The translations under genes and the position numbers were made by a program. DNA of 64,000 nt from Theileria orientalis strain Shintoku (taxonomy: Eukaryota; Apicomplexa; Aconoidasida; Piroplasmida; Theileriidae). The stretch's first letter is position 1. Every line of letters begins with the position of its first letter. Under the pieces are notes generated by a model. It saw only the letters and a program-made list of their open reading frames with translations, was not told the DNA's origin and did no database searches. Below are positions 26,669 through 44,729 of this stretch, piece after piece. The DNA is taken from the NCBI RefSeq assembly GCF_000740895.1, contig NC_025261.1, positions 496,001 to 560,000 on the forward strand, in the 5' to 3' direction.

Positions 26669-28468
26669 ATGGGTGATAACGAAGGCTCAAATCCTCCATC
26701 CAAGCGATATAACACCAGGCCCAAAACAAAGAGCAGTTTTGTGGCCCTTGAGGATAAATATTCAGCATACATTGTTGACACGAGCCCCAAGGTTGGTAAA
26801 AGATCTAGAAATTCAATCAGTGCAGACTATGCTGAGTACCAAAGGTATGTACATCCACAAATGCTCCCAAGGACTGTACAACATAACCAAATTAGCCAGG
26901 AATATGGCTATAGAAACATACAGGGATATCAAATGGCAGGTGAACCGATGAACACGATGGCTTTCAGAGGAAGAATGATTAACACGGGGTATAACAACAT
27001 GTATCAACCGAGTCATGGGTCAACAATGGCCCCGAACATGAATATAATGTATAAGAATCACCAGTATGGTATGCACATGAACTATCAAGGGGCTCAGATG
27101 GCAAGCGCTATGGTACCGCAGCCTCAGAACGTAAGAGTGGTGAACCAGATGGTTTATCCGCGGGACGCATCTCCATATGGCATCCCAAATGAGCACTTTA
27201 ACGCAAATGTGAATATGCCAATGAGAATGAATCAAGGTTATAACGTTCCACACCATTCATTCGTGCCACACGCAGCTCAACAAGGTTATGTTGGCACCAA
27301 CTATAACCCTAACCTGCAGTTTCCTAGGCCAACGCAGCCGGACCACGCCACTAATGCTATGGACACGAGTAACGTGGCACAAGGATTCGGTGTTCAGAAC
27401 GTACTGTACCATCAAAGAGCAACGCCACTAAAAAGGGACGTGGAAAACAAGGTTGAATTTTCGCCTAAACCCGAACAAGAAAAACACATTCAAAGGGCAC
27501 CCGAAGCGGATGAAATTAAAAGTTATTTTAAAGCAGTAGATGTCATTCTCAAGGATTTGTCAGATGATTCAAAGTTAGAAAGGTATGAAGGTAGCTCATT
27601 CGGATGTGTGTCAATAGTGGACGAGTTCAAACTCACAGACCCGTATAGAATGGTAAACATAGAGTACGCTATCACCCAAGAGCTGTATTCGGAGATCACA
27701 CAGTACTTGGACTCCATTAGCAAGTCGTATGTTCAGTTGCCGCTCAACGTGCCTCAAAATAGAAGAAACGGAAATAGAGCCGGAAATCGCGCACAAAATC
27801 AGAAAATTTTAACGGCAGATGACGGCAATGGAGAATTGGACGACAATACGAGTTCCGAGCCCACAGCCGACAAGGTGAACGAAATCGATCTTGAATTCAC
27901 AAACAATAATATAAAGTTGAAGCACGAAAGGAAGATATGCCCTATAACGATAGACTCGTACAAGCAGCTTTCGCTGAACGAGGCGAGAAGTTTGATGAGT
28001 TTGCTTAAGGACTCGAACGCAGTGAAGGCAAACCCCGTCGCCAAAAACAGAGTGAAGATTATAATCAACAGCCACGACGACACAAACTATAACTACTGGG
28101 TTTACTTCCCCGAGGACTCGAATAATGAGTATGTTCTTAAGCACCAGTTTGGCTCCTTTGTGGCCAACGATTTCTTGAACAAAAGGGTGCCGCTTTACAC
28201 TAACGTGGATTTTGGGAAGACTGACCCCTCGTTCCTGTTTGGCGGCAGCGCCAATAGAAAAGTAACCAAGCTTTCACATGTGTACGGGCAAGTTTCGAGA
28301 TCATACGACCTTTTTCTCGCAAACTTAAACGGTAATATTAGCTTGGGGCTTTCAAAAATTATATCTGAGTCTGAGAAAGATATAGGAAAGGCAATACACA
28401 CTCTATCGATTGGATGTAACATACTTTATATACCAACTCTGTTTAAAACAATACACTTAAATTTTTAA
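26669..28468 (+). CDS. 599-residue hypothetical protein, Met/Asn/Gln/Tyr-rich N-terminal half
   Basis: A single exon from ATG 26669. Residues ~60-250 are low complexity, rich in Met, Asn, Gln, Tyr and His (for example MNIMYKNHQYGMHMNYQG), typical of disordered RNA-associated or condensate-forming regions. From ~residue 280 it becomes ordered (IKSYFKAVDVILKDLSDD ... VSIVDEFKLTDPYRMV), with an Asn-rich gap before RKICPITIDSYKQLSLNE. Then come FLFGGSANRKVTKLSHVYGQ and a segment like LFLANLNGNISLGLS. No family recognised. The last ~22 codons lie in repeat A, whose other copies are non-coding, so the present C-terminus may be secondary. Confidence 0.6.
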   Translation: MGDNEGSNPPSKRYNTRPKTKSSFVALEDKYSAYIVDTSPKVGKRSRNSISADYAEYQRYVHPQMLPRTVQHNQISQEYGYRNIQGYQMAGEPMNTMAFRGRMINTGYNNMYQPSHGSTMAPNMNIMYKNHQYGMHMNYQGAQMASAMVPQPQNVRVVNQMVYPRDASPYGIPNEHFNANVNMPMRMNQGYNVPHHSFVPHAAQQGYVGTNYNPNLQFPRPTQPDHATNAMDTSNVAQGFGVQNVLYHQRATPLKRDVENKVEFSPKPEQEKHIQRAPEADEIKSYFKAVDVILKDLSDDSKLERYEGSSFGCVSIVDEFKLTDPYRMVNIEYAITQELYSEITQYLDSISKSYVQLPLNVPQNRRNGNRAGNRAQNQKILTADDGNGELDDNTSSEPTADKVNEIDLEFTNNNIKLKHERKICPITIDSYKQLSLNEARSLMSLLKDSNAVKANPVAKNRVKIIINSHDDTNYNYWVYFPEDSNNEYVLKHQFGSFVANDFLNKRVPLYTNVDFGKTDPSFLFGGSANRKVTKLSHVYGQVSRSYDLFLANLNGNISLGLSKIISESEKDIGKAIHTLSIGCNILYIPTLFKTIHLNF

Positions 28469-28611
28469 ATCTACTGTGATATGTGATAAATTATTAGAAT
28501 GTGTATGTTAATTTAATCGATTTGTTTTACCAATGTTTAGATCTAATATATAGATCGTTATAATAGTGATCATAAATAATTGTAATTATTTTTTATCAAC
28601 ATTGTACAAAT
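28403..28611. repeat. Repeat A, copy 1 (5' flank of paralogue 1)
   Basis: This block is repeated at 29658-29866 at a constant offset of 1,255 bases. I count two substitutions and no indels over about 210 bases. It includes the last codons of the 599-residue gene and runs up to the ATG of paralogue 1. Confidence 0.9.
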
Positions 28612-29574
28612 ATGATAGATAATACGATAATAAACTCGTTTATATCTTATATCACAGATTCAGTCTCTAAATGTAGTCATTGCGTACAATATGTCGTTAA
28701 GGAATTCGATTTAAGTTACATGAACCTTAATATATTATTTTCTGGTAATTACGTAGGATACTGCAATTCGATGTACGATGTATTCAACGAACTTTATGAT
28801 TTTTCGTCCATTGCTTATTCTAAAATTTTAAAAAGATATAAACGGTGGGTTGCTGTGGAAGTGGTTGACATGGATAAGTGTATGAAGCTGATGAGTTATC
28901 CAAACTGGGAACTGTACTTCTATAATGTCACGTACGTTCTGACCGTAGAATCAATCAAGTTCTCGAGGATTTCACTCTGTGTAATACAATTTTTATCACT
29001 CATATATGTACCATATTGCTGTCACGTTTTCATCACAACTCCGAAATCTGACCCGTACTATAATAACTACACTGTAAAGGATTGGATTTTTACATATTTA
29101 GTTTTTTCTTTTAGACGTTACGGCAGTATCATAGAGTCATATTATATGATGATCGTCTTGACATCATACTTTATAGATAATATTAACAGGGGTAAGCTGG
29201 TTTCAGGCATGACAAAGGTTGAATTAATTGGCTATATTGATTATTCTTGTTGGTTAATTAAGTTATCAAATGACAAAATTAAAAAATTCAGGGATGTCAT
29301 AGGAAGAAAAAATATTTTAAGATGTAAAGAGAGTATGACAAGAAAGCTGTCATCGTTGTCGTTAAAATCATTGATCACACTTGACAAATTAACCATGAAA
29401 ATTTACTTAGATACAATTATAATGAAACAAGCCAGGTTTTTAATTTTGCTAAGGGAGTTAAGCAAAAAAATGCTATACGATGCAGTTGACGAGTGTAAGT
29501 CCAAAGGCATACATTACATCAAACTGGACGATGAAAGAATAGGAATAGATAGTTTAAATGTGGATAATCTATAA
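28612..29574 (+). CDS. Tandem paralogue 1 of an unrecognised family
   Basis: An intronless gene of 320 codons, A/T rich. It shares with the following gene the N-terminus (MI..TI.NS.IS..TDSVS.C) and a central block: K.RYK.W(V/I)...V..VD...C..LM....W..YF.N.....LT.ESI.FS..S...IQ.LS.I. The middle holds hydrophobic stretches (ISLCVIQFLSLIYVPYCCHV; YYMMIVLTSYFI) that may be membrane helices. The C-terminal third is Lys/Leu rich and helical. There is no signal peptide and no known domain. Its 5' flank is nearly identical to that of paralogue 2 while the coding regions are far apart. Confidence 0.65.
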   Translation: MIDNTIINSFISYITDSVSKCSHCVQYVVKEFDLSYMNLNILFSGNYVGYCNSMYDVFNELYDFSSIAYSKILKRYKRWVAVEVVDMDKCMKLMSYPNWELYFYNVTYVLTVESIKFSRISLCVIQFLSLIYVPYCCHVFITTPKSDPYYNNYTVKDWIFTYLVFSFRRYGSIIESYYMMIVLTSYFIDNINRGKLVSGMTKVELIGYIDYSCWLIKLSNDKIKKFRDVIGRKNILRCKESMTRKLSSLSLKSLITLDKLTMKIYLDTIIMKQARFLILLRELSKKMLYDAVDECKSKGIHYIKLDDERIGIDSLNVDNL

Positions 29575-29612
29575 ATATGTAAAATGTAAATATATATATA
29601 GTATAAAAATAT

Positions 29613-29866
29613 GGATAATTAATAATTAATATAAACTGCAATGAGCATATACACACACTATCGATTGGATGTAACATACTTTATATACCAACTCTGTTTA
29701 AAACAATACACTTAAATTTTTAAATCTACTGTGATATGTGATATATTATTAGAATGTGTATGTTAATTCAATCGATTTGTTTTACCAATGTTTAGATCTA
29801 ATATATAGATCGTTATAATAGTGATCATAAATAATTGTAATTATTTTTTATCAACATTGTACAAAT
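29613..29866. repeat. Tail of repeat B plus repeat A, copy 2 (5' flank of paralogue 2)
   Basis: 29613-29657 matches the last ~45 bases of repeat B (seen again at 30,992 and 35,303). 29658-29866 is repeat A copy 2, which stops at the ATG of paralogue 2. Together they fill the intergenic gap. Confidence 0.9.
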
Positions 29867-30832
29867 ATGATAAATTGTACGATATTAAACTCGTATATAT
29901 CTGAAGTCACAGATTCAGTATCGGAATGTTATCAAGATGTTAATCGATGCATTAGTGACATATTATCTGGTAAATGTATACCATCTGACAGTAATATAGA
30001 ATTTAAGATAAAATGTATTGAATTTACTGATTGTTTACTCAACAATGTTTCAAGGTTTTCATCCCGTGTACGTTCTAATGTTAAAGCAAAATATAAAAAA
30101 TACATATCTGTAATGGTTGATTCTAGTACGTGTGTTCAATTAATGAATTCGGCTAAATGGGATGTTTATTTTTCAAATTTTGTATTTTTGCTAACTAAAG
30201 AATCAATTAGATTCTCAGTTGTTTCGGTATGGATGATACAAATGTTATCCTTTATAATTCGGGGTAACAAATATTCAATTCAGTACAACTACGATAAATT
30301 TGATTACGAGACTTCTAATGATTGTTTTCTTCGTATCAAAAACCTTATTAGCGATATTGATAACTTATTTTGGTTAAGATCATTTGAGTGTAATTCTCAC
30401 ATGTACTTAAACATGTTCACTAACCAAATGGTATATAATCGTTTTTATATAAACACAAATCCTTCATCATTAATAAGTAAAATACTTGAAAATGAGCACT
30501 ATTGTGAAATGTTTAATAGTATAAATGATTATTTTATTAATACTAGAAATGACCTTTATTCATTTTTTTCTAATAGGTGTTCTGGCTTGTTTTTTTATGA
30601 TGATCTAGATGATAACAAAAAACACCAACCAATCAATTTAAGAAGTCATTATATTGTAAGTATCAATAGTGTTATTAAACATGAAATTATTTCTAGAATC
30701 GTTAAATATAATGATAAAATTGTGGATGCAACTAATAATAATTTGTTAATAGATTCTGAATATGCAAAAAAATTACTTTTATATGATCCAATTCATAATA
30801 TCAATATTAAAAAGACTAATATTTATATATGA
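29867..30832 (+). CDS. Tandem paralogue 2 of the same unrecognised family
   Basis: An intronless gene of 321 codons, almost the same length as paralogue 1. The first ~20 codons align closely, then only a scattered pattern remains (IKAKYKKYISVMVD-type block, W.VYFSN..FLLTKESIRFS, MIQMLSFI). Its second half is Asn/Asp/Tyr rich and differs fully from paralogue 1. One hydrophobic patch (VVSVWMIQMLSFII) is shared in position. No known domain. The stop codon lies at the first bases of repeat B copy 1. Confidence 0.65.
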   Translation: MINCTILNSYISEVTDSVSECYQDVNRCISDILSGKCIPSDSNIEFKIKCIEFTDCLLNNVSRFSSRVRSNVKAKYKKYISVMVDSSTCVQLMNSAKWDVYFSNFVFLLTKESIRFSVVSVWMIQMLSFIIRGNKYSIQYNYDKFDYETSNDCFLRIKNLISDIDNLFWLRSFECNSHMYLNMFTNQMVYNRFYINTNPSSLISKILENEHYCEMFNSINDYFINTRNDLYSFFSNRCSGLFFYDDLDDNKKHQPINLRSHYIVSINSVIKHEIISRIVKYNDKIVDATNNNLLIDSEYAKKLLLYDPIHNINIKKTNIYI

Positions 30833-31085
30833 TATTATGTTATTAATAAAAATGGATTGTTCAAATATATCATTAGACTGACTTTATTATTGGGTACGTT
30901 ATTATCATAATGTATATAATTTAAAGAATATACTTGAATAATATATCTCAAATATCCCCAAATTGCAATAATACACATATTGAATGAAGAAGGTTAATTA
31001 ATAATTAATATAAACTGCAATGAGCATATACACACACTTTCGATTGGATGTATGATTATGTATGTCCATACTGTTTAAAACAATT
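30830..31085. repeat. Repeat B, copy 1, with the head of repeat A
   Basis: 30830-31040 is duplicated at 35141-35351, at a constant offset of 4,311 bases. I count about four substitutions and no indels. It begins at the stop codon of paralogue 2. Past 31041 about 45 bases resemble the head of repeat A and then decay. Confidence 0.9.
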
Positions 31086-34152: not shown

Positions 34153-34833
34153 TTAAATATTATCAAGAATGTGATTTTGTGGTATGTTAGGCACGTTATC
34201 CAATTTATTGGTTGAGCCAGTGCTCAAATAGATTTTGTGCCTTTTAAATACACGGGGCTCGTATATTAAGTTTGATCTCTTTCCTCCTGTGACAGACTTG
34301 CCGAGTTTTTTAAATTTGCGTATTGATTTGTCATCCTCCTTGACAACCTTATATAGCTTCGCGGTCTCTCTGTTCTTTTCAGAATTTATATCTCGGTCCT
34401 TCCACTTGCTTCGCATAACACGAATAGGGCGATTTCCTACAAATTTGTTGTTCATTTCCTTCAGTGCTCTAAGCATATCGTCAGGGTTTAAGAGGGATAC
34501 AAACCCGTATCCTTTCGTCTTTCCAGAGTTATTATCTCTAACTACCCGGGCTCTTTGAAATGAAGGGTATCTTTTAAAGGCGTTAGCTAATATTTCATCT
34601 GTTACTTCATTTCCTAGGTCTCCACAAAATATGCGATAGTCATTTTTTGGCCAATCTTCGAGGGTAGGGTCATTCCAAATAACTCCAGCAGCTTTTCTCA
34701 AATGTACATTGGTAGAGCATTTTTTACCAGCGGCCATTCTCCCTCCTATAGTAGCCGCTTGCTCATCTGTCACGTTAATCATATGATTGTTGAGGGGCTT
34801 CAAAGAGGAGTAACCATGAATCATGTTCGACAT
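34153..34833 (-). CDS. RBM42-like RNA-binding protein
   Basis: A single exon of 226 codons. It carries the RBM42 hallmark: AAGVIWNDPTLEDWPKNDYR, then the RRM with RNP2 FRIFCGDLG-type strand (YRIFCGDLGNEVTDEILANA) and RNP1 KTKGYGFVSL, followed by NRPIRVMRSKWKDRD. The RRM covers residues ~75-160. The basic C-terminal tail (VTGGKRSNLIYEPRVFKRHK) has low complexity. RBM42 is an hnRNP K and splicing-associated factor in other eukaryotes. Start ATG at 34833. Unlike its neighbours it is a clear housekeeping gene. Confidence 0.85.
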   Translation of the reverse strand: MSNMIHGYSSLKPLNNHMINVTDEQAATIGGRMAAGKKCSTNVHLRKAAGVIWNDPTLEDWPKNDYRIFCGDLGNEVTDEILANAFKRYPSFQRARVVRDNNSGKTKGYGFVSLLNPDDMLRALKEMNNKFVGNRPIRVMRSKWKDRDINSEKNRETAKLYKVVKEDDKSIRKFKKLGKSVTGGKRSNLIYEPRVFKRHKIYLSTGSTNKLDNVPNIPQNHILDNI

Positions 34834-35604
34834 AATGACAATTTAAATATATATATATAGTATATATAATTGATATAATAAATAATGATTATAAAGTTAT
34901 AATATTAGTAACTATAATATTACAATGGGGAAAGATAGTAATATACAAATATAAATAAAAAACAAAAACGGGTCAAAACAGGATAAAATAATGTATAAAC
35001 ACAATTGTTATAATAGTGTATAATATAAAAATTGAAAATGAGGTATTAAATAACATTAATATTATTATAATAAAGAGGGGCTATAGTTGATATATATTAA
35101 TTTAAACGATTCAAGTATTATAAAGATTGTTATTAATCAATGATATTATGTTATTAATAGAAATGGACTGTTCAAATATATCATTAGACTGACTTTATTA
35201 TTGGGTACGTTATTATCATAATGTATATAATTTAAAGAATATACTTGAATAATATATCTCAAATATCCCTAAATTGCAATAAAACACATATTGAATGAAG
35301 AAGGTTAATTAATAATTAATATAAACTGCAATGAGCATATACACACACTTTCGATTGGATTTATAATTGTGTATGTCAATACTGTTTAAAACAATACACT
35401 TAAATTTTTAAATCTACTGTGATATGTGATATATTATTATAATGTGTATTTTAATTTAATCGATTTGTTTAGCCTTACATTATTTAATTTACACTTCTTA
35501 ATTATAATATATATCTTTTTTCATACTTGATTTATTTTATTATTTTCTATTTTTTATTTTTAATTTGTAATTTGATTTACATATTATCTCTTCTTATATA
35601 CCTG
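34834..35604. other. Divergent promoter region with repeat B copy 2 and partial repeat A
   Basis: About 770 bases, extremely A/T rich, between RBM42 (minus) and the SMN-like gene (plus). Apart from the repeat block at 35141-35475 I see no gene. Just before the repeat (35,100-35,140) the sequence weakly resembles the 3' end of paralogue 2. Confidence 0.6.
35141..35475. repeat. Repeat B, copy 2, joined to partial repeat A (copy 3)
   Basis: 35141-35351 matches repeat B copy 1 with about four substitutions. Directly after it about 120 bases match repeat A (for example aaacaatacacttaaatttt), with a diverged stretch near 35,362-35,380. The match is lost in the T-rich DNA upstream of the SMN-like gene. 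Confidence 0.88.
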
Positions 35605-36386
35605 ATGGAGGATATATTCGATGATTCTTTTGATATCATTTCTGAATCGATAAGGGTTTGTTATTTCATATATAACATTGTTTTAGGAAAGGATATTTAA
35701 TATTCAATCAAATTCTAAACTAAAAATGGTAAGTTTTGATATCCTATATGATTCAGGCTCTAAAAACGCTGGAAAAATTCATGTTAGGTAATGATAACGA
35801 TTCACAAAATAGTGAAATTAATAAGTGGGATTCCAGTGAAAATCACTTTATAATCGATGATTTTAATAGTGAATTAAATGTTTCGGGGAATAAAGATGAA
35901 AATTGGTCCGGGTCTTCTAGTTTTTATAAAACCAACGATAACTCAACTTTAGAGTTTAGGAAGGCACTTAAAAATTTAATAGTTTTATATGATAATGTCA
36001 AACAATACTCAGATGTTTCGAAAATATTAAGGCCGCCTCCGGTTCCAGTAACCGAATTGTTTAGGAAGCACAACCCCGAAGCCTCGAACATTTTTGACTT
36101 TCATAACACTAATTATGAAAATCAAGTAAATTTAAATGAATCGAAATCATTCTCGAACGATATGGATAAGATGGTAAGGGAGGCCATACACACTTGCCTC
36201 ATTCAACCCAACCATCTTAAAGAAGCTTTTAACGATACAAGTTTAGCTGATGATTGTACATTAAATTCATTGAAAATTTCGGATTCTGGCGTGGATTCGA
36301 ATTATGAAATGCTAAGAGTTTTATTTGGCTGGTATTTTTCGGGTTACTATACAGCCAGGATGGAACTTCTGACTCAATCTGATTAA
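35605..36386 (+). CDS. SMN-like protein (Gemin2-binding helix plus YG-box, no Tudor domain)
   Basis: Three exons joined at phase 0 by introns of about 31 and 28 bases. Exon 1 and 2 give MEDIFDDSFDIISESIRERI, resembling the acidic Gemin2-binding helix of SMN (DDSDIWDD..L.KAYD). The central ~150 residues are Asn/Asp/Ser rich without a Tudor domain, with RPPPVPVTEL as the only Pro motif. The C-terminus, LRVLFGWYFSGYYTARMEL, fits the SMN YG-box used for oligomerisation. SMN assembles Sm rings on spliceosomal snRNAs. Total about 247 residues. A Tudor-less SMN also occurs in fission yeast. Confidence 0.65.
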
Positions 36387-36485: not shown

Positions 36486-39458
36486 ATGAGTAAAAAGTCA
36501 CTTAACTCGTTGTCAAAGATTGACATCTCAGACTCGATTTCTGATTTTATAGATTTATCGCAAATATATAGCCTTCCTTCTGTCAAGTTTTGTCCGAGAA
36601 AGGATGAAGTTTTGTCAAATGTGTCCTCAGAATCAGATAAAAAGTCGGTCGTATCAAACTGCTCAGACTCCATAAGTTCAATGACATCATCTGACTCGGA
36701 TGACTCCATAGTGTCGCTTAATATGGAGGATAGTAGGAAGGAGGGCCCGGAGGCTGTGACGGAGCTTCAGGACTCGTATTTGGCAGTTTCCTCAGGTATC
36801 TTGTGCACATTCACATTACCTTTAGATGCGGTGATAAGCTTTGATAAGCATCTCGATTACATGAGTGGTCTGACCAGGCACCTGAAAATTATTTACAAAC
36901 ACCTATGCGTTCAAAGCAGTTTCAACGTGGAGTCGATATTGAAGTGCTCATTCGAAGTCTTTGGAAAGCTGCACAGCACAGCCTGCGTATTGTCGTCATT
37001 CGATTATGCGTCGAAAGGGCCCGAGAAGAACAGTCGCGAGTTTCTGAGCAGGTTGCTTGACACGTTCAAGGAGTCGTACAGTGATCTGGTGCTTTTCAAC
37101 ACACACGTGTGTAAGCTGCTGTCCTCGGAAATAACATCGAGCATCGCCACAATGCTCCTGGAGTTGATTCCATACCTCATGGACACGCTATGTTGCACAC
37201 TGTTTCCTCTGCTGAGGCACCTTGACCAGAATGAAACGAAGGATGACCTATCAACGCTCTTTGAGAAGATTTTGGGATATTACGTGGTTTTCTGTTATAG
37301 TTTCCTGGATCATACGGAGGAATTGTTGAATAAAATGGCCTTGCTGACGCTATATAGATTAACGATAACGTTCGTCCCACTGGATTTGATACATACCAAT
37401 AAAGACGAGGGAAAGGATGAAAAGGAGATGGTCGGAAAGGATGATAGATTAGAACTGGTGAATCATCTGAAGGAGGAATATCTGAGGGATGAATTTAAGC
37501 CGTCAAGCGTCGTTATGTTTGAATTGAGATCGAAAGCGTATGTCAGTGAGATGAGTAAACATGAGGTTGACTTGGTTAAGAGGTCGGTCAGTGTTTTAGA
37601 GAGTTGTTTGAGGACAGGCATTAGTAGACGGCAGTATCCGACGACACACATCGATAACGTTGGCTGTTTTGAAATGCTAACATCATCGTCAGTCACGAGT
37701 CTCGTGAAAAGTTTGAACTTCTGGCTTCTGCAAAGACTAGAGTGCAGCAGCGTGTGTATTAGGAGAGTGGCGCTGATGATTATGAGGCACGCACTGTGCA
37801 CGATCCACTTCGTAGAGCGGGACAGGCAGTTTGTGCTATCGTACGTGTACAACTGTCTGTCGGAAGAGGACACGCTGGATGAGTCGCTCTCGCTAATAAG
37901 CTGTTTGTCGAAGCTCTATCCCATGAAGGACGGAGCAGTCAAGAAGATCGCAAGCCTGACGCTAAAAGGCTCAAACAGAGGAGTGAGGCTGAGGGTTCTG
38001 GAATGTCTGTCGAGCTGCAAATTCACAAAGAAGGGCGTCTCGTTCGCGGTGTCGGTCTTAAAGTCGCTGGCGAAGACCTCGACCGCAGGGCAGGGGTACG
38101 TGAACCACCAAGGCGAGGCGGCGGGCGCTGGAGACACTGGGAAGGCCCAGGAGTGCGCGTTCGGAGCGAGTGAGTGGCCAGCCATCGTTGACACACTCGT
38201 GTCAATTGCACGGTCGAACTCGAACGGCGGGGAAAAGACCCAGACGGTTCCGCAAGAATTCGCGCGCCACGTTAAGAGGAGAAAGCTGGGTCCCGTCTCA
38301 GCCTCAGGCTGGATATCGCTGTTGTGGAGCTACCTCACTTCGACGGAAGATGAAAGGGCGCAGCTGTTTAAAAGTTTGTGGTTCACGGAGGCCATGATTC
38401 GCTTCCCGCGAATCGTTAAATCAGTGTTGGAGCTCGACAGTAGGTTTTTTCGCTCACACGTGGCAGTTTACGACAAGTTCCTCCTCCTCGGAGGAGAGTG
38501 CGGCGAGGAGAGCCTCGCCTTCCTGAAGGACAAGAGCAACTGGAAGGCGCTCCATGACCTGCGCGTCCCCTACTCGCTGGACCACTTTGAGAGGGCCAAC
38601 ACCGCCTTCAACGACAGCTACACGGTAACGGGTGCTGGTGCTAAAAATTCCATGAAAAGAAAATTGGATGAAACTAAGAGAAGCGCGGACGATTCACATT
38701 CAGGTGTCTGCAGTTGCGTGGATTGTAGAATCGACCACGTGATAAAGGAGTACCACAAGGTTCTCGTCGCGCTCAACGTCAGCACGGGCGTCCCTGCCAA
38801 GCAGGACAACCCGTTGGACTCACTAGACTTTCAATTCGACTCTCTCCACGATGTGTTCGGTTCTGCAGTCTGCAACAAGTACGAGGCGCCCCAAGAGGAC
38901 GAACAGGCTTTTGAAATACTGGGGCGGGTGCCTAAGGCAGCGACTGCTGAGTCGTGGAACGCTTGCCCTCCCGCTGCAGGTGCTTCTTCGACCCCACAGG
39001 ATTTCGAAGGGATTCGTTGCAACATTGAGGACCTGGATTGTTTTGAATACCCCGCCTCCATGGGAACTGAGGTGAGCCTCAATTTCAGCTGCAGATCTTC
39101 CAAATACCCCTCGGATCTGTCCGTCTTCTACAGGATGCCATTTATAGTTAACCCCAGACCCGATAGGCGGAACCCCAATAAGCACTGTAAAATTGCTGAT
39201 ACCAGCCCGATTTGTGCCCCAAGTGTGAGGCTGGACTCCGGTATGCGCTCCAAAGACCCCGGTAAATCCTTCAATTTTGTAAAAGCTCACTTGAGGGCCG
39301 ATGAAAAAGTCAAAAATTTGTACCACGGCACTGTCAGACTTCGCCTCAGTTTTCATAATCCAATCGTTATCCCCGCCAGGATCCAGTTTTATTACATGGT
39401 TGACGGCGCCAGGGGACCTCTGGGGTCCGTCTGGATCCATCCCAGATGCAAGTATTAG
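36486..39458 (+). CDS. 990-residue conserved hypothetical protein, probably helical-repeat (HEAT-like)
   Basis: A single exon from ATG 36486. After a Ser/Asp-rich acidic N-terminus (residues ~1-95) comes a long helical region with HEAT-like rhythm, for example LECSSVCIRRVALMIMRHAL, then YVYNCLSEEDTLDESLSL and KIASLTLKGSNRGVRLRVLE. A disordered insertion sits near residues 540-580. The C-terminal ~140 residues look beta-rich (LNFSCRSSKYPSDLSVFY ... ARIQFYYMVDGARGPLGSVW). I considered an Integrator- or adaptor-type scaffold but see no decisive signature. Part of the gene (37,540-37,705) is duplicated at 44,510-44,680. The gene ends in a convergent gap. Confidence 0.65.
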   Translation: MSKKSLNSLSKIDISDSISDFIDLSQIYSLPSVKFCPRKDEVLSNVSSESDKKSVVSNCSDSISSMTSSDSDDSIVSLNMEDSRKEGPEAVTELQDSYLAVSSGILCTFTLPLDAVISFDKHLDYMSGLTRHLKIIYKHLCVQSSFNVESILKCSFEVFGKLHSTACVLSSFDYASKGPEKNSREFLSRLLDTFKESYSDLVLFNTHVCKLLSSEITSSIATMLLELIPYLMDTLCCTLFPLLRHLDQNETKDDLSTLFEKILGYYVVFCYSFLDHTEELLNKMALLTLYRLTITFVPLDLIHTNKDEGKDEKEMVGKDDRLELVNHLKEEYLRDEFKPSSVVMFELRSKAYVSEMSKHEVDLVKRSVSVLESCLRTGISRRQYPTTHIDNVGCFEMLTSSSVTSLVKSLNFWLLQRLECSSVCIRRVALMIMRHALCTIHFVERDRQFVLSYVYNCLSEEDTLDESLSLISCLSKLYPMKDGAVKKIASLTLKGSNRGVRLRVLECLSSCKFTKKGVSFAVSVLKSLAKTSTAGQGYVNHQGEAAGAGDTGKAQECAFGASEWPAIVDTLVSIARSNSNGGEKTQTVPQEFARHVKRRKLGPVSASGWISLLWSYLTSTEDERAQLFKSLWFTEAMIRFPRIVKSVLELDSRFFRSHVAVYDKFLLLGGECGEESLAFLKDKSNWKALHDLRVPYSLDHFERANTAFNDSYTVTGAGAKNSMKRKLDETKRSADDSHSGVCSCVDCRIDHVIKEYHKVLVALNVSTGVPAKQDNPLDSLDFQFDSLHDVFGSAVCNKYEAPQEDEQAFEILGRVPKAATAESWNACPPAAGASSTPQDFEGIRCNIEDLDCFEYPASMGTEVSLNFSCRSSKYPSDLSVFYRMPFIVNPRPDRRNPNKHCKIADTSPICAPSVRLDSGMRSKDPGKSFNFVKAHLRADEKVKNLYHGTVRLRLSFHNPIVIPARIQFYYMVDGARGPLGSVWIHPRCKY

Positions 39459-44361: not shown

Positions 44362-44729
44362 TTGCGAACGCCCTCACATATTTATGCGAAATTAAAGTTA
44401 AAATACTATTTAAAACCATCATTCAAATCTAATGTACTATATTAGACAAATCTAAACCAGATTCTACGAATAAAAATGACTTAACTCCAAAAATATGCTA
44501 TATATGTGGCTTATGTCAGTGATATGAGTAAACATGAGGTTGACTTGGTTAAGAGGTCGGTCAGTGTTTTGGAGAGTTGTTTGAGGACTGGCATTAGTAG
44601 ACGGCAGTATCCGACGACACACATCGATAACGTTGGCTGTTTTGAAATGCTAACATCGTCGTCAGTCACGAGTCTCTTGTAACGAGTGTATGAAGCTAAT
44701 CTAGGCCGTGTAAATATATTTTTACTTTA
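44362..44729. other. Intergenic region holding the duplicated gene fragment
   Basis: A gap of about 370 bases between the DEAD-box gene's start and the PDE12-like gene's end, both on the minus strand. Apart from the duplicated fragment it is A/T rich and featureless. Confidence 0.6.
44510..44690 (+). pseudogene. Duplicated fragment of the 990-residue gene
   Basis: About 165 bases match 37,540-37,705 of the 990-residue gene, in the same strand orientation. I count five differences, three of them synonymous. The fragment keeps an open frame from ATG 44524 to TAA 44680-44682 (52 residues, including GISRRQYPTTHIDNVGCFEM). It lacks the rest of the gene and has no obvious splice partners. Sequence either side is unrelated. 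It lies between the starts and ends of two minus-strand genes, so it is most likely a non-functional insertion of coding DNA. Confidence 0.85.

Follow-up and report, generated by a model that had tools for sequence, protein, structure and literature searches.

Two adjacent genes of Theileria orientalis Shintoku (Ikeda genotype) carry nearly identical 5′ flanks beside strongly diverged coding sequences. The sequence pattern makes us fairly confident that the genes are old tandem paralogues in a small, decaying array and that ectopic gene conversion, or an equivalent recombination between tandem modules, has overwritten the non-coding module between them. The window analyzed was the 64,000-base stretch chromosome 2:496001–560000, and coordinates without a prefix are positions in it; the locus lies ∼524 kb into the 2.2-Mb chromosome 2 (C2), in an interior position.

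Divergence of the flank and of the coding sequence

The locus begins with an upstream gene (26669–28468), a single ORF of 599 amino acids, whose stop codon is separated from the start of gene 1 by 143 bases. Gene 1 (28612–29574; 320 amino acids) and gene 2 (29867–30832; 321 amino acids) are the two adjacent intronless ORFs described in the first-pass annotation; these and all features below were read on the plus strand. Gene 1 is without a family match, and gene 2 is its paralogue, detectable as such over residues 1–130 only. With a hydropathy threshold of 1.6 (19-residue means), each protein has one stretch only, that of gene 1 at about residues 120–142, and by hydropathy alone neither N terminus has signal-like character.

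To locate the change in divergence, the two units were compared along their length. At an offset of 1255, positions 28403–28617 differ from 29658–29872 at exactly two of 215 bases (28489 and 28514) with no indel, confirming the ∼210-base near-identical flanks reported earlier. The best three-segment fit to the ungapped alignment of 28403–28799 gave 0.9% differences for 28403–28617, 21% for 28618–28679, and 66% beyond, and identity computed along the units thus bears out the statement that the flank is more alike than the coding sequence. The intermediate segment (28618–28679), which covers the initial ∼60 coding bases, suggests an older and longer conversion tract. The alignment between 28394 and codon 131 has 596 sites, with differences at 3 of 218 in the flank and at 157 of 378 in the coding part. 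The longest identical run was 103 bases, a length reached in none of 20,000 shuffles (maximum 45); an identity run that so far exceeds the expectation from the surrounding divergence is the pattern by which interlocus conversion is recognized.

The collapse of similarity ∼60 bases into the coding region, as first described, holds for the DNA but not for the proteins, which are alike to residue 131 (37% identity, E = 9e-19). There the similarity ends, and the C-terminal parts showed no detectable alignment (global z of 1.2 for the C-terminal halves). In codons 22–131, dN was 0.60 and dS was 1.61, with synonymous sites near saturation; the resulting ratio of ∼0.37 does not bear out the suggestion of rapid adaptive diversification of the coding part. 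The first 21 codons carry 9 non-synonymous and 2 synonymous changes (pN 0.18, pS 0.15), on too few sites to judge selection. Because a flank with 2 differences in 215 bases and coding sequence with a dS of ∼1.6 cannot share one age under ordinary divergence, the flank appears to have been reset.

Module copies at the locus

The flank is part of a recombining module present in four copies, A to D, of which C and D are partial and additional to the two 5′ flanks. Copy A (28391–28611) is the 5′ flank of gene 1. It adjoins the coding sequence of the upstream gene, whose final 25 codons and stop (28391–28468) it contains; its similarity to copy B therefore starts inside that gene, at ∼28391, with a left edge blurred over 28391–28394. 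Copy B (29613–29866) consists of a left core of ∼30 bases, which is common to B, C, and D and missing from A, followed by the 5′ flank nearly identical to that of A. Copy C (30801–31084) starts within gene 2, close to its end, crosses the 3′ flank of that gene, and breaks off after the first part of a third module. Copy D (35111–35470) has a 3′ flank of the gene 2 type and then a mosaic module, with no recognizable family gene downstream.

Copy D differs from the gene 2 3′ flank (30833–31056) at 6 of 224 bases and from the last 32 bases of gene 2 at 10. Within its module, a switch from C-like to A/B-like sequence occurs at ∼35382, at a shared block. When the two differences between the A and B flanks were compared with copy D, one appeared derived in A and the other in B. 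Sequence searches of the assembly found no module copies beyond this locus. We considered whether copies A and B could be LTR-like direct repeats bounding gene 1 and rejected this, as their similarity extends into both coding regions, which are homologous, and a scan of six ORFs gave none that resembles a mobile-element protein.

Taken together, the young flank, the old coding parts, and the mosaic structure of copy D support the earlier proposal that the 5′ flank underwent gene conversion or recombination. In a recent event, ∼215 bases of 5′ flank would have been copied between genes 1 and 2, in either direction, and an older one may have extended across the first ∼60 coding bases. Related events would account for the likeness of copies C and D and for the mosaic nature of D, and the coding bodies would have continued to diverge under moderate purifying selection. 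Conversion would halt at these bodies because they are too unlike to pair. From the pattern as a whole we infer the mechanism, the number of events, their timing after the split of the Ikeda and Chitose genotypes, and a promoter within the flank.

Homologues and other genotypes

Searches of the 9.0-Mb assembly with each protein (E ≤ 10) returned only genes 1 and 2, a member count that is a lower bound. Within the window, tblastn with either protein gave no sign of additional, decayed members, the best match apart from the two genes having E = 0.42. In the protein database, neither gene had a match at E ≤ 10; the same database gave the Fish Creek (Chitose) and Goon Nure (Buffeli) orthologues of the upstream gene, and no Shintoku records were among the matches for the three queries (gene 1, gene 2, and the upstream protein). 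Genes 1 and 2 are possibly orphans specific to the Ikeda genotype.

The family went unrecognized in the first-pass annotation, and neither gene received a Pfam or NCBIfam assignment: the only Pfam match was that of gene 2 to Vanabin-2 (E = 0.18), far under its cut-off, and NCBIfam gave a single match at E = 0.98. The FAINT profile PF04385 matched neither gene at E ≤ 1; as a positive control, three of four ORFs at C2:400672–405126 passed its cut-off, and the fourth, entered without its first residue, scored 15.7 versus 20.7. The one profile match to a solved structure (E = 0.67) was taken as chance, AlphaFold2 run on two-sequence alignments gave mean pLDDT values of 32.6 and 33.9 with no usable fold, and Rfam found nothing in the window at gathering scores.

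The upstream gene allowed comparison with the other genotypes. Its Goon Nure orthologue diverges at the module edge, at codon 575 (28391). In the Fish Creek orthologue the module-coded end is retained at the same place, but 5 of its 25 residues have changed, which requires no fewer than 6 base changes in 75; such base counts are minima inferred from one protein, in which silent changes are invisible. The A and B flanks are 99% alike within Shintoku, against a published genome-wide identity of 81.7–82.0% between Ikeda and the other two genotypes (PMC9323827).

An initial comparison of unequal stretches, 2 of 215 for the whole A–B tract versus at least 6 of 75 for Fish Creek, gave a Fisher p of 0.0045 (4 of 72 and p = 0.036 without the last residue) and was stronger than its like-for-like version over identical bases. 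There, A–B versus Fish Creek differences were 4 of 75 (3 at the blurred edge) versus at least 6 of 75 in 28391–28465 (p = 0.75), 1 of 72 versus at least 5 of 72 in 28394–28465 (p = 0.21), and 0 of 63 versus at least 5 of 63 in 28403–28465 (p = 0.058), the last becoming 0 of 60 versus 3 of 60 without the final residue (p = 0.24). The Fish Creek sequence thus agrees with recent conversion over a stretch too short for like-for-like significance.

Alternative explanations and related systems

On a further reading, the module would be a regulatory cassette spread by recombination: conversion would keep one shared promoter on an Ikeda-specific orphan pair with diverging proteins, and the cassette would also rewrite the C terminus of the neighbor between genotypes. 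We regard this as unlikely; if it were true, homogenization of the flank would edit a protein too. The position of the tract in a flank is probably incidental, because crossover-associated (allelic) conversion tracts described for T. parva are of similar length (medians of 277 and 426 bp; PMC3575351) and because tracts in a FAINT array lie within coding sequence. This array (C2:400672–405126, ∼120 kb away), found in a base-rate control for conversion tracts over 260,000 bases (C2:300001–560000), contains three tracts of 219–414 bp with 97–99.5% identity inside otherwise diverged tandem genes.

It is improbable that the flank is a shared promoter or 5′-UTR held by extreme purifying selection while the coding parts drift. 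The tract does span all 143 bases that separate gene 1 from the upstream stop codon, with its 2 differences, and it contains, at 28498, AATGTGTA, close to the Spe2 motif AATGTGTAA that PMC4761415 describes near Theileria transcription starts; this 8-mer is present in A, B, and D (28498, 29753, and 35441), and the Fish Creek comparison is too short to decide against constraint. However, the tract also includes 66 bases coding for the end of the upstream protein and its stop, an end that is changed in Fish Creek. Copies C and D are eroded, with D 88% identical to A and 91% to B, and AATGTGTA occurs 13 times in the window on both strands, those three included (a raw count rather than an enrichment figure).

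We consider it very doubtful that the genes belong to a larger variable multigene family, with conserved flanks as recombination anchors and coding parts diversifying under selection. The unalignable C-terminal halves, the failure of both genes to find a database match where their neighbor found orthologues, and the proposal in PMC4066756 that non-coding flank repeats aid variant-gene recombination would all fit such a family. Against it, as against the first-pass suggestion of one, stand the two members in the assembly, the restriction of module copies to this locus, the interior chromosomal site, the N termini, and the dN/dS of ∼0.37, a paralogue comparison that is uninformative on strains. 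An assembly artefact, with one flank duplicated or collapsed in the reference sequence, might be suspected from near-identical ∼285-base repeats just 1.25 kb apart. It is highly improbable, since the copies differ in substitutions and left ends and the Fish Creek protein, which derives from a separate long-read assembly (PMC9323827), has the same module-coded end in the same place.

Recent copying of the flank is most likely, a recombination process that is itself ordinary in an unusual position. The locus is a clear example of apparent conversion in Theileria that affects regulatory and not coding DNA, with three levels of divergence (1%, 21%, and near saturation) inside a few hundred bases, and it cautions that flank similarity gives no indication of how old such paralogues are. 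Genes 1 and 2 may set the Ikeda genotype apart from the other two; this sequence analysis gave no evidence for a disease link.

A short, sharp-edged tract of near-identity in old paralogues, with partial homogenization of the unit, resembles interlocus conversion between tandem paralogues. Ectopic conversion of this kind is reviewed for Caenorhabditis in PMC3966223, and several of its passages describe similar coding sequences with flanks that have diverged, the reverse of the present locus. Babesia ves1 variant antigen genes likewise undergo segmental gene conversion in a piroplasm, but they involve active-transcription loci and many members (PMC4066756), whereas genes 1 and 2 are two genes known from sequence. 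The Tpr family also consists of non-subtelomeric Theileria genes of unknown function with a diverged part; its defining feature, however, is a C-terminal domain that is conserved and typically contains five transmembrane helices (PMC10730637), and the C termini of genes 1 and 2 are unlike each other. The FAINT (DUF529) array on the same chromosome shares the arrangement of tandem ORFs with tracts of near-identity beside strongly diverged sequence, but in the array the near-identity falls in C-terminal coding sequence, and one tract extends also over 132 bases of 3′ flank.

Divergence of the flank and coding regions of two adjacent genes

The examined assembly comprises 9,010,364 bases in six contigs, with contig 2 (chromosome 2, C2) accounting for 2,216,979 bases; the window corresponds to C2:496001–560000. 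The first-pass annotation had described a pair of adjacent intronless genes behind near-identical 5' flanks, and both parts of that description were borne out. Gene 1 (28612–29574, plus strand; window positions carry no prefix) and gene 2 (29867–30832, plus strand) each consist of a single ORF, with 320 and 321 codons respectively, and their 5' flanks, copies A and B of a recombining module, differ at 2 of 215 bases with no indel (28403–28617, offset 1255). ORFs of these lengths are not expected by chance at the local composition (about 1e-12 and 1e-13, treating bases as independent).

Residues 1–131 of the two proteins are 37% identical (E 9e-19), and their global alignment score lies 17 standard deviations over shuffles, versus 1.2 for the remainder of both proteins, where 54 of 500 shuffles were equally good. 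Synonymous sites of codons 22–131 are close to saturation (dN 0.60, dS 1.61, pS 0.66). The genes are thus old paralogues, and with a dN/dS ratio near 0.37 both look like moderately constrained protein genes. At third codon positions, GC stands at 37% in gene 1 and 21% in gene 2.

Change points of A–B divergence were fitted at 28618 and 28680, giving three levels (1%, 21%, and near saturation) that point to two or more events differing in where their right ends lay. The final A–B difference left of 28618 is at 28514, so the true right edge of the tract may lie anywhere between these positions, and little weight is therefore placed on its closeness to the start codon of gene 1 (28612). The 21% stretch holds 2 synonymous and 9 non-synonymous changes over 21 codons (pS 0.15, pN 0.18), too few for a claim about selection. 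Given where it lies, the flank most probably holds the promoter of both genes. AATGTGTA, at 28498, 29753, and 35441, is close to the Spe2 motif of PMC4761415, but this 8-mer has ten further occurrences on the two window strands.

Copies of the recombining module

Self-comparison of the window followed by alignment yielded four module copies: A (starting at 28391) and B (starting at 29613) in the 5' flanks of gene 1 and gene 2, C (30801–31084) spanning the end of gene 2 and its 3' flank, and D (35111–35470). When the whole assembly was queried with the 5' flank, with the 3' flank, and with a 27-base core allowing no more than 3 mismatches, each query gave at least three places, a lower bound, all belonging to these copies. 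Over 30833–31056, 6 of 224 bases distinguish C from D. Left of a common block at ∼35382, D matches C at 76 of 80 aligned columns versus B at 67 of 79, and right of it D matches B at 91 of 101; copy D is thus a C-like/B-like mosaic that switches at this block. Of the final 32 bases of gene 2, only 22 are identical in D, so a weak trace of the end of that gene is the most that D can retain. No gene of this family follows copy D in the window, and we take D to be what is left of a unit that was lost or displaced.

A minus-strand RRM protein (34153–34833; Pfam E 6.8e-17) is encoded between C and D, so the recombining modules are separated by an unrelated gene. Directly downstream of D is a small ORF (35748–36386), which a short intron may separate from a lone ATG at 35726; it gave no Pfam match in the profile scan. 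Its C-terminus recalls, by eye, the YG box of the survival motor neuron protein.

Age of the flank tract

Copy A supplies the final 25 codons and the stop of the upstream neighbor gene (26669–28468, 599 aa). The Fish Creek (Chitose genotype) orthologue (599 aa, 72% identity) keeps the module-coded end with five replacements (residues 575, 582, 588, 597, and 599). The Goon Nure (Buffeli genotype) orthologue (585 aa, 72% identity) diverges directly after residue 574 (base 28391), coinciding within a few bases with the start of A–B similarity. From the shared Fish Creek end and the departing Goon Nure end, we infer that the module was probably already at this site before the Ikeda (Shintoku) and Chitose genotypes separated; in Buffeli, it was probably lost, replaced, or differently annotated. 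PMC9323827 groups Chitose with Buffeli, but with low gene concordance on that branch.

In the module-coded end, Shintoku and Fish Creek differ at a minimum of 6 of 75 bases, counted from protein because silent changes are invisible. Against the whole A–B tract (2/215) this gives p = 0.0045, or p = 0.036 with the last residue omitted (4/72). Like for like, A–B versus orthologue differences were 4/75 and 6/75 (p = 0.75; three of the four A–B differences are the edge itself), 1/72 and 5/72 (p = 0.21), 0/63 and 5/63 (p = 0.058), and 0/60 and 3/60 (p = 0.24). The contrast over the same bases is not significant, so the case for conversion depends mainly on the difference between flank and coding divergence, supported by the copy D mosaic and the neighboring FAINT array. 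Given the published identity between genotypes of about 82% (PMC9323827), the 99% A–B identity is likely younger than the genotype split. Recent ectopic gene conversion of the 5' flank between gene 1 and gene 2 is, in our judgment, the probable explanation.

Conversion-like tracts on chromosome 2 and prior accounts

Across C2:300001–560000 (260,000 contiguous bases), self-matches of at least 80 bases and at least 85% identity, taken at E ≤ 1e-10 with word size 16, gave 16 rows at six loci, all direct. Short-period tandem repeats account for two loci; the remaining four are the gene 1/gene 2 locus, a FAINT array, a pair of long ORFs, and a pair within the window. Conversion-like patching thus appears at several loci, and in this small sample of four dispersed-repeat loci only that of gene 1 and gene 2 has its tract in the 5' flank.

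The FAINT array (C2:400672–405126), identified by self-matches and Pfam, consists of four tandem minus-strand ORFs, three above the Pfam cut-off (the fourth scored 15.7 versus 20.7). Its three tracts (219, 369, and 414 bases, 97–99.5% identity) sit in the C-terminal coding part; two are entirely coding, and one combines 282 coding bases with 132 of 3' flank. The long minus-strand ORFs (C2:480808–481952 and 488773–489908; 1191 and 1073 aa) are alike in patches of 89–99%, with more diverged stretches between them. In the window, a 168-base piece (37536–37703, codons 351–406 of a 990-aa ORF) is repeated 7 kb away at 44509–44676 with 97% identity; all 5 differences fall at third codon positions, the copy remains open, and the assembly search returned no further place.

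Protein database searches gave no relative at E ≤ 10 for gene 1 (2600 candidates) or gene 2 (865 candidates), and the same database gave both non-Ikeda orthologues of the neighbor gene. The search depends on shared five-residue words, and the Fish Creek and Goon Nure proteomes are possibly incomplete at the locus; this is not proof of absence, and in non-Ikeda genotypes the genes may be absent, unannotated, not in the database, or much diverged. PMC9323827 reports 246 Shintoku-specific genes. Pfam, NCBIfam, solved-structure profiles, and structure prediction found no family or fold for either protein. Gene 1 has a single hydrophobic stretch, in which the highest mean over 19 residues (1.85) starts at residue 123, and that of gene 2 is weaker (1.67, from residue 113). 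Among the papers listed in literature searches on Theileria gene conversion, none concerned this locus judging by title or abstract opening; the present instance, not found described there, belongs to a kind of event that is already known.
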